From positions 1 through 34,425 of the forward strand of contig JAPHQX010000016.1 in the NCBI GenBank assembly GCA_026196035.1: a stretch of 34,425 nucleotides of DNA, written 5' to 3'. The notes under the pieces are model-generated. The model saw only the letters and a list, made by a program, of their open reading frames with translations. It did not search any database and had not been told where the DNA came from. The position numbers and the translations under genes are program-made. How positions within the stretch are numbered: the stretch's first letter is position 1; each line of letters opens with the position of its first letter. Below are positions 4,821 through 12,869 of the stretch, piece after piece. The stretch is from Gammaproteobacteria bacterium. Lineage in GTDB: Bacteria > Pseudomonadota > Gammaproteobacteria > SZUA-229.

Positions 4821-6023
4821 ATGCAAGCTGTCACCATCACAACACTTAATTCTGCTTACAATGATCAGTTAGTTGAGATTGTCGAACGCAAAGGCATCGG
4901 GCATCCGGATACCATGTGTGATGCAATGGCCGAAGAACTGAGTCGCACACTGTGTGAATATTATCTCGAACACTTTGGTCTGGTGCTGCATCACAATGTC
5001 GACAAGGCATTATTATGGGGTGGCCATTCAGCACCCGAGTTTGGTGGCGGCCAGATAATTGAACCCATGGAAATTTTTCTGGCCGGTCGCGCCACATGTG
5101 AGTACCGTGGCATTAAAGTGCCATTAGAAGAACTGGTAATGGAAAGCTGCAACAACTGGCTGAACTCCAGTTTCCATATCCTTGATGCTGAGCGGGATGT
5201 AAAACTGCACAGTCTGATTCGACCGGGCTCTATTGATCTGGTTGAACTTTATCTGCGCCAGGAAAAAACCGGCATTGCTCTGGCCAATGACACTTCCTGT
5301 GGAGTTGGTTATGCACCCCTGAGCGAACTCGAACGCGTGGTGCTGCATGTTGAAAAAACCCTGAACTCACCCAGAACAAAATCAGACCATCCGGAAATCG
5401 GTGAGGATATAAAAGTCATGGCGGTGCGCAGGCAGGACACCATTGACCTGACCATTGCCTGCGCCTTTATAGATCAGTTTATTTCAGACAAACAGGATTA
5501 CAGCCATAAAAAATCCCAGCTCATTAAACTGGTAGAACAGGCCGCCCAGAAAGAATCTGACAAAACACTAACTATCACTGCCAACACCGCTGATGATATC
5601 GATAAGGACAGTTATTATTTAACCGTGACCGGCACCTCGGCTGAATCCGGCGATGATGGTGAAGTCGGCCGTGGTAATCGAGTGAACGGATTAATCACTC
5701 CCTACCGACCAATGAACATGGAAGCTGCCGCAGGTAAAAACCCGGTCACCCATGTTGGCAAACTTTATAACCTGGTCGCGCAACGCATTGCAGAAACGAT
5801 TGTGACTGAACTCGATGAAGTGCGTGAGGCCTGTTGTTATCTGGTGAGTCGCATTGGCAGCCCGATTACTGAACCGCAGGTGGTCGATATTAAACTCTAT
5901 ATGCAGGAAAGTATTTCGACTGACGAAGTCAGATCGCAGGTACAGGCGATAACCGATGCCGAGTTATCGAATGTTTATAAAATTCGTCAACAGTTAATTG
6001 CCGGGGAAATTCGGGTTTATTAA
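4821..6023 (+). CDS. Archaeal-type S-adenosylmethionine synthetase (methionine adenosyltransferase, AdoMet_Synthase family)
   Basis: 400 aa; VEIVERKGIGHPDTMCDAMAEELS, HHNVDKALLWGGHSAPEFGGGQIIEPMEIFLAGRAT and GDDGEVGRGNRVNGLITPYRPMNMEAAAGKNPVTHVGKLYN are typical of the archaeal MAT family rather than canonical bacterial MetK. Confidence 0.92.
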   Translation: MQAVTITTLNSAYNDQLVEIVERKGIGHPDTMCDAMAEELSRTLCEYYLEHFGLVLHHNVDKALLWGGHSAPEFGGGQIIEPMEIFLAGRATCEYRGIKVPLEELVMESCNNWLNSSFHILDAERDVKLHSLIRPGSIDLVELYLRQEKTGIALANDTSCGVGYAPLSELERVVLHVEKTLNSPRTKSDHPEIGEDIKVMAVRRQDTIDLTIACAFIDQFISDKQDYSHKKSQLIKLVEQAAQKESDKTLTITANTADDIDKDSYYLTVTGTSAESGDDGEVGRGNRVNGLITPYRPMNMEAAAGKNPVTHVGKLYNLVAQRIAETIVTELDEVREACCYLVSRIGSPITEPQVVDIKLYMQESISTDEVRSQVQAITDAELSNVYKIRQQLIAGEIRVY

Positions 6024-6028
6024 CAACT

Positions 6029-7123
6029 TCAGTGCAATCTTTCGATTAACAGATCGACATAGTCTTTTAGTTCTGATTTTAATTCCCTGTCGATGGCGGT
6101 GAATTCAAGATGACAACCAAACTCATGATTCTTTTTTTCAACGTGAGTGACTTTAGCAAATACGTCACTGGCACAACAACGCATTAATGATTCTGAAAAG
6201 GTGGTTTGTACTTCATCATGTTTTCTCAGACCAATGGGTACCACGGCGAACAGACCACCATAACTGATATCCATAATTCTGCCCGTATATTCGTCCGGCT
6301 GAACTTCCTTGTCTGTTACACAATGAAATGCCAGTGGCATATTAACTTTAACCCGGGGGCTTTTTCGTATTTCACGACACGGCACCTGAAGATATCGCGG
6401 CCGGTCTGTAGCTAACAGCTCATACATTCTGACGGCATCTTTTCTGCCCTTCACATGGACTTCATTGATATCACCAATTTGAATATAATCTTTTGCTTTC
6501 AGATAAGTATTTTCACTTAACAGAATCTGGCCGCGTAAACTATGCGCTTCAACTCGCGCCACAAGATTAACTTCATTTCCAATGACCGTATATTCATTAT
6601 GTAATTCTGACCCGAGAGTACCGGCAACAACTTCACCCGTATTAATGCCTATACCCATGTAAAGTGAGGGCATGCCGAGACTTTCATTAAGTTGATTAAT
6701 TTCACTCATCACCACCTGCATTTCAGTGGCGCAGGCCAGGGTACGCTCAAGATCATCAGGCCGACTTTGAGGAATACCAAACAGGACCATGATGGAATCG
6801 CCCATAAACTTGTCGATGACACCATTATATTTCAGGATCACTTCACTCATTTTTAAGAAATAGCGATTAAGCAACTCCAGCAGTTCTACTGGTGAGTAAG
6901 CTTCTGCCATGGTTGAAAAACCACGCAGGTCAGACAGCAGAATATTAACCATTTTTTTCTCTGTCTGTAGATGACCATCGAGGGAAAGATCAATTGAACG
7001 ATATAATTTTCTGACTAACTGATGTTCATTAACACCTGGCATCATATGTGGAAAACTATCATTTATAACATCCATGATATTGCCAACCAGATTGCGTTTA
7101 ACTATGTTGTTTAATTTTTTCAT
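6029..7123 (-). CDS. Class III adenylate/guanylate cyclase fused to a C-terminal PilZ domain
   Basis: Cyclase motifs LLSDLRGFST, DKFMGDSIMVLFG, GINTGEVVAGTLGS and NEYTVIGNEVNLVARVE; C-terminal PilZ motifs RKSPR (RxxxR) and DISYGG (D/NxSxxG). Confidence 0.92.
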   Translation of the reverse strand: MKKLNNIVKRNLVGNIMDVINDSFPHMMPGVNEHQLVRKLYRSIDLSLDGHLQTEKKMVNILLSDLRGFSTMAEAYSPVELLELLNRYFLKMSEVILKYNGVIDKFMGDSIMVLFGIPQSRPDDLERTLACATEMQVVMSEINQLNESLGMPSLYMGIGINTGEVVAGTLGSELHNEYTVIGNEVNLVARVEAHSLRGQILLSENTYLKAKDYIQIGDINEVHVKGRKDAVRMYELLATDRPRYLQVPCREIRKSPRVKVNMPLAFHCVTDKEVQPDEYTGRIMDISYGGLFAVVPIGLRKHDEVQTTFSESLMRCCASDVFAKVTHVEKKNHEFGCHLEFTAIDRELKSELKDYVDLLIERLH

Positions 7124-9444: not shown

Positions 9445-10011
9445 TTAACCGACGATATTGTGTTTACCGATTAAATGAACGGTACTGGCCTGTGGGCCAT
9501 TATCACCAGCCACTTCTGAAAACCTCACCTTATCACCGTATTCCAGTGCATCAAAACTACCCTCTAACAGACTGTTGCGGTGAAAATAGATTTCACGGCC
9601 ATCAGAAGATAATATACGACCATAATCTTCATAAGGCACCAGCTCCAGCACCGTACCATGAGGTGGAACTTCGTGATGCTTGACGTCACCCCGCTGTTTT
9701 CGGGTGAAATCCTGTAGCTTGCGCTTGGCTGCATTAAAGGCATCACGTATGGCGACATAGACATCTTCATGGGCATGATGGTCTTTGGGTGCGCGATTAA
9801 TAATCAGCTCACCATTGGGCACAGTGAGGTCAATTCGAACATGATAAAGACCGCCTTTATTATGATGCGCGTGAGGCGCTTCGACCATGACTGAACAACT
9901 CATGATCTGGTCATAAAATTCATCTAGTTTGGCTGCTTTTTCACGGATTTTGGCTTCTACTGCTTCTGATGGTGGGATATCACGAAAGTTGATTTGCAAT
10001 GGTTGCTTCAT
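9445..10011 (-). CDS. HPF/RaiA (S30EA-type) ribosome-associated protein with C-terminal cold-shock domain
   Basis: N-terminus PLQINFRDIPPSEAVEAKIREKAAKLDEFYDQIMSCSVMVEAP...AIRDAFNAAKRKLQDF is HPF-like; C-terminus GTVLELVPYEDYGRILSSDGREIYFHRNSLLEGSFDALEYGDKVRFS is CSD-like. Confidence 0.88.
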   Translation of the reverse strand: MKQPLQINFRDIPPSEAVEAKIREKAAKLDEFYDQIMSCSVMVEAPHAHHNKGGLYHVRIDLTVPNGELIINRAPKDHHAHEDVYVAIRDAFNAAKRKLQDFTRKQRGDVKHHEVPPHGTVLELVPYEDYGRILSSDGREIYFHRNSLLEGSFDALEYGDKVRFSEVAGDNGPQASTVHLIGKHNIVG

Positions 10012-10154: not shown

Positions 10155-10182
10155 TTCAAAAATAGCTGATATTTTCAGCTTA
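10155..10182 (-). terminator. Putative intrinsic terminator at the end of the diguanylate cyclase gene
   Basis: Minus strand reads AGCTGA-AAATA-TCAGCT followed by ATTTTTG; the stem is 10180-10175 / 10169-10164 and overlaps the stop codon. Confidence 0.5.
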
Positions 10183-11904
10183 TTCAATCGTAGCACCTGT
10201 TTCAACGCGATCTCGCCCATTCGCCTTGGCCTTATACAGCCCTTCATCCGCTGCTCGAATCAGATGGCTCGATGAGGTCGGAATATGACCTGTTGGATTA
10301 TATGTTCCCACCCCAATACTGATAGTAATGTGATCACTGGCTTTTGATGCACTATGTGCAATCCCAAGTTCATGTATCGCTTTTATCAATAACTCGGACA
10401 GCCATTTAGCTCGATCAGCATCAGTATTGGGCAATATCACAGCAAACTCTTCACCACCATAACGGGCAACCATTTCACCCCCACGCTGAAAAAATGTTTT
10501 AATAACTGTCGCCACCTTGTATAAACACTTATCACCTTCCTGATGACCATAGGTATCATTGTAGAGCTTGAAATAATCAATATCACACATCAATAGTGAT
10601 AAGGGTAATTTATCTCGAGTGGCTCGATTAAGTTCTTCATCAATTCTAATATCAAAACTTCGCCGATTGTAGATATTGGTTAAACTGTCTTTGGTGGCAT
10701 ATTCATTCAGTTTTTTGTTACTCTGCAGAAGCTCATCATTAATATTTTTCATAATGCGCTCAAAGTCTTTTCGTTCGGTAATATCCCTGATTATTCCAGA
10801 ATACATTTTTTTAGAGCCTATCAGCATTTCACTAACTGAAATATCGATTGGAAAAACAGTATTATCTCGCCTTTGCCCATTAACCTCACGCTTGATACCT
10901 ATGACTTTTCTAATGCCGGTAACTTTATAATTTTTCAGGTAGCCATCATGCTCCGATTTATAGGGCTCTGGCATTAATATAGAAACATTATGGCCTGCTA
11001 ATTCATCCTCAGTGTAACCAAACATCTTTTCAGTCGCCCTGTTAGCTCGACGAATTATACCCTGATCATCTATAACGACTATCGCATCAAGAACACTTTG
11101 AAATAAACCCTCCAGACGATGCTCTCGCTCCAGTATCTGTTCCTGGTTTTTATCGATCCTATCCAGCAGACTATTGATAGACGTAGACAACCAGCTTATT
11201 TCATCATGACCTCTGGTAGCTGATCTAATATTATGATCACCATCCGAATAGGATTTCAGTGTGTCAACAAGATGATTAACACGTCTGGTGATCAAACGCC
11301 CTGTAAAAAACAGTAACAGAAAAATACCCGCAAAAAACGTCAACCCTACAAATAGAAACCCATTATAGATTGACGCCTCAGCTCGATCGAAATGAAACCC
11401 AAGGTCAACCTGATAAAAAATAAAACCACAATCATCTGCTCTCAATAAAGCATCATTGCCTGTAACACAGAGACTACTATAACCATCGATGATCTTTTTA
11501 TCGGTATATAGATAGGTATCTATAGTTTGTCTGAGTATAATTTTTTCGATGAGCTCAGCATCAGGCGCCGGACTGACCTGCTTCCAGTGTTTACCCTGGT
11601 CAGTATATTTACTAGCTGCGATGACTATATCGTCCTTTGATACAATCGCCAGGTAATTCAGATCAGTTTCTGATGAGATACTTGAAACCATCCCTCTTAA
11701 ATAGTCATATTCATGATATTTCATAAAATGAGAAACAACACCCTGGAGAGAATTAAGGCGATCACGAACAACTATTTCCTGTTCTTCTGCCACCCGATCA
11801 AAGACAATGCTACGACTCATATAGAAAGACAAACTGATAGTCAATATTGTAAAAACACCAATAAGACCCGGTAGAGCAAATCGCAAACTAAGAAAACGAT
11901 ACAT
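10180..11904 (-). CDS. Diguanylate cyclase: periplasmic sensor, HAMP, PAS, GGDEF
   Basis: Two TM segments bracketing a periplasmic region, HAMP-like RRVNHLVDTLKSYSDGDHN, PAS (LDAIVVIDDQGIIRRANRATEKMFGYTEDEL) and GGDEF (DSLTNIYNRRSFDIRI ... RYGGEEFAVILP). Confidence 0.93.
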   Translation of the reverse strand: MYRFLSLRFALPGLIGVFTILTISLSFYMSRSIVFDRVAEEQEIVVRDRLNSLQGVVSHFMKYHEYDYLRGMVSSISSETDLNYLAIVSKDDIVIAASKYTDQGKHWKQVSPAPDAELIEKIILRQTIDTYLYTDKKIIDGYSSLCVTGNDALLRADDCGFIFYQVDLGFHFDRAEASIYNGFLFVGLTFFAGIFLLLFFTGRLITRRVNHLVDTLKSYSDGDHNIRSATRGHDEISWLSTSINSLLDRIDKNQEQILEREHRLEGLFQSVLDAIVVIDDQGIIRRANRATEKMFGYTEDELAGHNVSILMPEPYKSEHDGYLKNYKVTGIRKVIGIKREVNGQRRDNTVFPIDISVSEMLIGSKKMYSGIIRDITERKDFERIMKNINDELLQSNKKLNEYATKDSLTNIYNRRSFDIRIDEELNRATRDKLPLSLLMCDIDYFKLYNDTYGHQEGDKCLYKVATVIKTFFQRGGEMVARYGGEEFAVILPNTDADRAKWLSELLIKAIHELGIAHSASKASDHITISIGVGTYNPTGHIPTSSSHLIRAADEGLYKAKANGRDRVETGATIE

Positions 11905-12869
11905 TAGTTAATCACATCATTTATAAACTGATTAGTAAACAAGTCATTATTAGAGAACGGTTTATTCAGTAATTTATTATTCAACATGATCTTGCTCATC
12001 TGGTTAACCGTTCTTTGTAAAACATAATTCCTGACACCCAGAAGCTCATTATTTTCATTTCTATCCGGAAGAACGATCGTTTTATAATGAGCTTCAACCT
12101 GTTGAACACTAACATTTAACCTTTCAGCAATATTCAAATAGGCTTCAAGCTGGTTTTCATCCATATAGTCAAGCGCCCAGAACCAGCCAGTAACAAGTTT
12201 ATTTAATGCATGCGCGTACTTATCTATACAATCCTGATGCACCACCAGAACATCAATAATTTCACCGGGCATCATGGTGCTATCGAAAATCATATTAGCG
12301 CCCGCAGAAAGCAGGCCGTTTATAGCTGGCTCAAATGTTACCACCGCATCAACTTCATTATTAATAAATGCTTTTTCATGTGCCTCAAAATTAATATGAC
12401 GAATCGAAACATCCTGCAAAGCCATATTATTAGTTTCAAGTGCCCGCGAAAGAACAAAAGCACCCAGCGCACTACTTTCTACACCCACTGTTTTACCCTG
12501 AAGCTGTTTAACGGATTGTATATCTGAATGAGAAATGATGGCGTCAGCGCCATTAGAAAAATCATGTATTAATATCACGCTGACAGGTATATCCAGTTGA
12601 CGTAACAGTAGAACCTCATCCAGTGTCAGTGAAGCCGCTTCTATTGCCCGGTTACGAAAGGCACGTAACACTTCTGTAGCTGATGGATACTGTATGAGTC
12701 GTATTTGACGTTTTTTCCAGAAGTTTAAATCCCTGGCGAGATAAAGCGGCTCATAACCCGGCCACTGATTCCCACCCACTCTCAGCGGCGCGTGTGGCGC
12801 TTCACTGCAGGCTGATAGTTGAAGAGAAACTAAAATGACTAATAGTATGATTCCGTTATTAAAAAACAT
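11904..12869 (-). CDS. Lipoprotein substrate-binding protein, NMT1/SsuA-like
   Basis: Signal/lipobox LVSLQLSAC; LRVGGNQWPGYEPLYLARDLNFWKKRQIRLIQYPSATEVLRAFRNRAIEAASLTLDE and GKTVGVESSALGAFVLSRAL. TAATG stop/start overlap with the downstream GGDEF gene. Confidence 0.87.
   Translation of the reverse strand: MFFNNGIILLVILVSLQLSACSEAPHAPLRVGGNQWPGYEPLYLARDLNFWKKRQIRLIQYPSATEVLRAFRNRAIEAASLTLDEVLLLRQLDIPVSVILIHDFSNGADAIISHSDIQSVKQLQGKTVGVESSALGAFVLSRALETNNMALQDVSIRHINFEAHEKAFINNEVDAVVTFEPAINGLLSAGANMIFDSTMMPGEIIDVLVVHQDCIDKYAHALNKLVTGWFWALDYMDENQLEAYLNIAERLNVSVQQVEAHYKTIVLPDRNENNELLGVRNYVLQRTVNQMSKIMLNNKLLNKPFSNNDLFTNQFINDVIN

Follow-up and report, generated by a model that had tools for sequence, protein, structure and literature searches.

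A class III cyclase fused to a PilZ domain as a candidate direct link from c-di-GMP to cAMP

A gene in the window, the whole 34,425-nucleotide stretch of contig JAPHQX010000016.1 from a gammaproteobacterium of the SZUA-229 lineage, raises the question of whether c-di-GMP can set the synthesis of a cyclic mononucleotide directly, through one protein. Few nucleotide signals in bacteria are as well studied as cAMP and c-di-GMP, and both bear on whether cells move or settle. To our knowledge, it is cAMP or cGMP that acts on c-di-GMP in the direct links that are known, and the remaining cross-talk is mostly transcriptional. A hard-wired link from c-di-GMP to cAMP in a single soluble protein would, if true, reverse this known direction, and it would suggest c-di-GMP-controlled cAMP tools.

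The joining of PilZ domains to enzymes is a known theme, with BcsA and PilZ-GGDEF proteins as examples. A fusion of PilZ to DnaK is described in Myxococcus (PMC10313047), and 221 PilZ architectures were present in Pfam as of 2020 (PMC7288161). In open-access full text, no description of a class III cyclase under PilZ control was found; the domain combination may be listed somewhere. In Xanthomonas, XC_0250/XC_0249 link a cyclic mononucleotide directly to c-di-GMP signalling (PMC3770947). However, the mononucleotide there acts on the c-di-GMP side, whereas in the window protein c-di-GMP would influence the making of the mononucleotide, inside a single polypeptide. A Leptospira diguanylate cyclase that depends on cAMP, as it is cited in PMC12943098 (J Mol Biol 2017), likewise places the mononucleotide on the c-di-GMP side, opposite to the direction proposed here.

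Domain layout of the cyclase-PilZ gene

The gene spans positions 6029 to 7123 on the minus strand (as do all of its features given below), including the stop codon, and is an intact ORF for 364 amino acids that starts with ATG at 7123 and whose stop ends at 6029. A Pfam scan recognises two domains only. The class III cyclase domain covers residues 55-236 (6416-6961) and matches Guanylate_cyc PF00211 with E=1.1e-27 (97.2 bits against a cut-off of 21.9). The PilZ domain covers residues 252-356 (6056-6370) and matches PF07238 with E=6e-11 (43 bits against a curated cut-off of 22.5). Thus, the description of the gene as a class III cyclase fused to an intact PilZ domain in the sequence-only reading holds, as does its remark that no GAF module is obvious; Pfam recognised no sensor domain. 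The N-terminal region (residues 1-54, 6962-7123) has two predicted helices at residues 6-23 and 33-48 and is without a domain match, and NCBIfam has no specific model for the protein. A full-length AlphaFold model built with 40 homologues (mean pLDDT 82) shows a cyclase fold, after which come a beta-rich domain and, at the C-terminus, a helix.

Catalytic residues and expected product

All six motifs named when the gene was first read are found in the translation. Four of these lie in the cyclase domain: SDLRGFS (6914-6934), with the first metal aspartate D65; DKFMGD (6797-6814), with the purine-selecting K105 and the second metal aspartate D109; EYTVIG (6578-6595), with the purine-selecting T179; and NLVAR (6554-6568), with the transition-state residues N186 and R190. 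Both metal aspartates and both transition-state residues are present and conserved. The closest solved domain is that of the Synechocystis guanylyl cyclase Cya2 (2w01; E=5.7e-49, about 43% identity), and the cyclase model compares to it with a TM-score of 0.95 over the target. The product of Cya2 is cGMP (PMC4284465). Also among the nearest solved cyclase domains is that of Pseudomonas aeruginosa CyaB (3r5g), which shares the class III adenylyl cyclase core but differs in that the solved construct is without PilZ. Full-length CyaB is anchored in the membrane by a MASE2 domain.

In the alignments, the K105/T179 pair of the window protein is the same as in CyaB, whereas Cya2 carries Glu/Gly at these positions and makes cGMP. 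Lys together with Thr or Asp at the purine-selecting positions marks an adenylyl cyclase under the established rules for class III enzymes, and the product therefore should be cAMP, not cGMP. The initial suggestion of cAMP or cGMP as output can be narrowed to its first half, and cGMP was set aside as a candidate product on these substrate-selecting residues. That the enzyme is a guanylyl cyclase after all, with a link from c-di-GMP to cGMP, has in its favour that the best solved catalytic match is Cya2 and that a sister clade, described below, appears to be guanylyl-type. We nevertheless judge it very improbable, because Cya2 has Glu and Gly where the window protein has the ATP-type pair, and because Lys/Thr is found across the whole clade, including members (L133-L136 and L152) that were found without a seed containing Lys.

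The PilZ ligand site and its conservation

The remaining two motifs are RKSPR (6353-6367, residues 253-257), an RxxxR stretch that is the predicted c-di-GMP switch, and DISYGG (6254-6271, residues 285-290), a DxSxxG stretch with D285, S287 and G290. These residues align with R114, R118, D145, S147 and G150 of E. coli YcgR, which contact c-di-GMP (PMC7288161), and the motif spacing is as in c-di-GMP-binding PilZ domains. Searching the PDB sequences with the PilZ profile gave no match at E=1, and the structural likeness came from fold comparison. When the domain was modelled by itself (pLDDT 84.6) and compared with the whole PDB, the best matches were PilZ domains with c-di-GMP complexes on top, including 4xrn, Alg44 (4rt0/4rt1), YcgR (5y6f/5y6g), VCA0042 (2rde) and BcsA. 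Around the RxxxR stretch the model is less confident than elsewhere, as might be expected of a loop that becomes ordered upon ligand binding. That the domain binds c-di-GMP is a strong inference. YcgR (5y6f), VCA0042 (2rde), Alg44 (4rt0) and BcsA (4p00) have in common with it the fold and the RxxxR...DxSxxG motif, and BcsA resembles it further in that PilZ controls an attached enzyme. However, none of the domains to which PilZ is joined in these four proteins is a nucleotidyl cyclase.

Relatives were collected by scanning with the peptide KFMGDSIM, which gave 80 loci; two with a broken reading frame were excluded from counts. Because this seed contains the lysine, part of the K105 conservation among the scanned loci follows from the search itself. 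Neither RxxxR nor DxSxxG served as a seed, and the members that came from whole-genome searches without KFMGDSIM have the same residue pattern. Among 40 aligned members, identity to the window protein in the PilZ region is 25-44%, with the nearest relative at 70%. All 40 homologues match both PF00211 and PF07238, and only five of the 116 columns in the PilZ region alignment are invariant, R253, R257 and G290 among them, so the fusion is not a product of chance. In the larger set of 84 distinct sequences of the window type, each one has R253 and R257, Asp or Asn at 285 and Gly at 290, and in each both domains are intact and kept together. Position 287 is Ser in 38 of them, Gly in 45 and Ala in one. 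By these residues, the DxSxxG motif is not uniformly classical in this clade; Gly predominates in one beta-rich lineage, and Ser is the residue in the window protein and in the relatives nearest to it.

Comparison with the nearest orthologue (L015, 74% identity) gave a dN of 0.11 in the cyclase domain and 0.18 in the PilZ domain; dS was saturated, so that dN alone is usable. As judged from the sequences, both domains are under constraint. The fusion forms one clade with a patchy distribution over beta-, gamma- and deltaproteobacteria. Carriers are rare within the order (2 of 54 genomes, counting the genome of the window), and a Lys-type, RxxxR-bearing member occurs in 5 of 369 sampled genomes of the class. 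No other input domains were recognised in the scanned members. The family is coherent and apparently uncharacterised, and its architecture predicts a direct link from c-di-GMP to cAMP.

A profile search of 399 genomes yielded another group of class III cyclases, in which a C-terminal domain sits where PilZ does in the window protein (L137, L138 and L156-L180). This domain is homologous to the PilZ domain of the window protein (profile-profile probability 98.2%, E=3.7e-14 over 118 columns), even though it mostly falls under the Pfam threshold, with weak matches in two of ten. RxxxR was found in none of 31 sister proteins. Moreover, position 105 in these 31 proteins is Glu in 25 (as in Cya2), Asn in five and Ala in one, but never Lys, and several carry N-terminal receiver or GAF domains. 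The sister clade thus shares a homologous cyclase and C-terminal domain with the window clade, yet differs in its residues at position 105, in its degenerate PilZ-fold domain and in its frequent receiver or GAF input. These GTP-type cyclases appear to hold a hidden and probably ligand-free PilZ family that Pfam mostly misses. In a tree built from just the cyclase domain, the ATP-type clade forms one side of a branch with an SH-aLRT of 86, and the other set is grouped at 99 with one long-branch row within it. Intact c-di-GMP residues therefore accompany ATP-type residues, but this does not amount to repeated evidence because it reflects a single evolutionary split.

Four proteins of one sub-lineage of the sister clade, with Asn at position 105 (L153, L154, L155 and L159), have the degenerate PilZ-fold domain followed, in the C-terminal third, by a second PilZ domain with DFSLDG and an RxxxR-type stretch such as RRSLR, the latter read by eye. 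This second domain suggests that c-di-GMP input to these cyclases arose again. In L172 (907-3222), a single ORF encodes a receiver, a cyclase and a PilZ-fold domain and then a calcineurin-like phosphoesterase domain, so one chain could possibly both make and break down a cyclic nucleotide.

Coupling of the two domains and genomic setting

We regard the protein as probably a soluble class III adenylyl cyclase, with c-di-GMP setting its activity. Because the key residues of the sensor are kept in 84 of 84 relatives, c-di-GMP probably governs cAMP directly. This core of the sequence-only reading, a cyclase under c-di-GMP control via PilZ, is backed by the conserved residues, by a PilZ model resembling c-di-GMP complexes and by the contrast with the sister clade; cGMP as the output and a link to the nearby GGDEF gene are not. 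Taken with the sister clade, we lean slightly towards a broader scenario in which a clade of adenylyl cyclases gated directly by c-di-GMP has a common ancestor with a guanylyl-type clade that lost, or never had, the site in its PilZ fold and relies on receiver or GAF input, and in which one sub-lineage gained a second, intact PilZ. The sister clade would also offer a built-in comparison for coupling and uncoupling between a PilZ fold and a cyclase.

Mechanistically, the cyclase would be a homodimer with shared active sites that makes cAMP like other class III enzymes. Binding of c-di-GMP to PilZ would order the flexible RxxxR linker just after the cyclase domain, and this ordered switch would shift PilZ relative to the cyclase, altering the dimer geometry and the closing of the two active sites. 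Output of cAMP would then follow c-di-GMP, with activation slightly preferred as the sign of the effect. In VCA0042 and YcgR, c-di-GMP at RxxxR reorients PilZ relative to the preceding domain. From E235, the last conserved cyclase residue, to R253 there are 17 residues in the window protein, and this distance is 16 or 17 in 85 of the 89 members measured. A linker this short and nearly fixed in length suggests mechanical coupling of PilZ to the cyclase.

Two other roles for the PilZ domain need to be weighed. The domain might bind c-di-GMP for docking or localisation, for example at the machinery for flagella, pili or polysaccharides, in which case the ligand sets where cAMP is made and not how much. 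The PilZ domains of YcgR and MapZ do work through protein partners, and the sister clade retains the fold without the ligand residues, so the fold itself may be structural or serve in docking. The linker just described speaks against this proposal, as does the lack of a conserved partner gene in ORF clustering of 41 loci plus the window, although a docking partner may be encoded elsewhere; we consider it unlikely. Less likely still is that the domain has lost c-di-GMP sensing and remains as an appendage for structure or protein binding, like the PilZ proteins that do not bind the ligand. Among PilZ-fold domains, many are unable to bind c-di-GMP (PMC7288161), the sister clade maintains a homologous domain that lacks RxxxR, and the Ser of DxSxxG is frequently Gly in the window clade. 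However, the window protein keeps all five classical residues, and all 84 proteins share R253, R257 and G290 even though the surrounding domain is mostly 25-44% identical. The sister clade, in turn, displays what loss looks like.

The genome of the window, which is 73% complete, has 38 GGDEF, 22 EAL and 10 PilZ matches, together with four class III cyclases and 12 cNMP-binding domains, and with so many GGDEF and EAL matches c-di-GMP is surely made. The cAMP would act via CRP, which is found above the curated cut-off in a same-genus genome that carries an orthologue of the fusion (G031) and in three of four other carriers tested. No CRP above the cut-off was found in the 73% complete genome itself, possibly because of that completeness.

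Upstream of the cyclase-PilZ gene, at a distance of 97 nt, is a PEBP-family gene in the same orientation, and a gene for S-adenosylmethionine synthetase (4821-6023, plus strand) is convergent with it. This synthetase is of the PF01941 type, which we take to be archaeal-type, in a proteobacterium. Among the loci compared, only that of the closest relative, L015, shares the neighbours of the window. Beyond close relatives, the sole recurrent neighbours are downstream genes for HDOD and metallo-beta-lactamase-fold proteins, which three loci have in common (L029:9472-11273, L051:6290-8048 and L074:9077-10854). An assignment of function from gene neighbours was rejected, because no partner is conserved over the family.

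The GGDEF enzyme noted earlier at 10180-11904 does exist, as a HAMP-PAS-GGDEF protein, but a specific link to the cyclase finds no support. Its proximity means little because four genes and 3 kb lie in between and because it is one of 38 such matches in the genome, and it was not retained as a cognate partner. The gene overlaps the end of a gene for an NMT1/SsuA-like, lipoprotein-like substrate-binding protein (10180-12869 for both, minus strand), and the two are possibly a ligand-sensing diguanylate cyclase pair. Upstream of its GGEEF motif, the HAMP-PAS-GGDEF protein has RGGE and not RxxD, which may mean weak product inhibition. Elsewhere in the window, a minus-strand gene at 9445-10011 joins an S30AE ribosome hibernation factor domain to a cold-shock domain.
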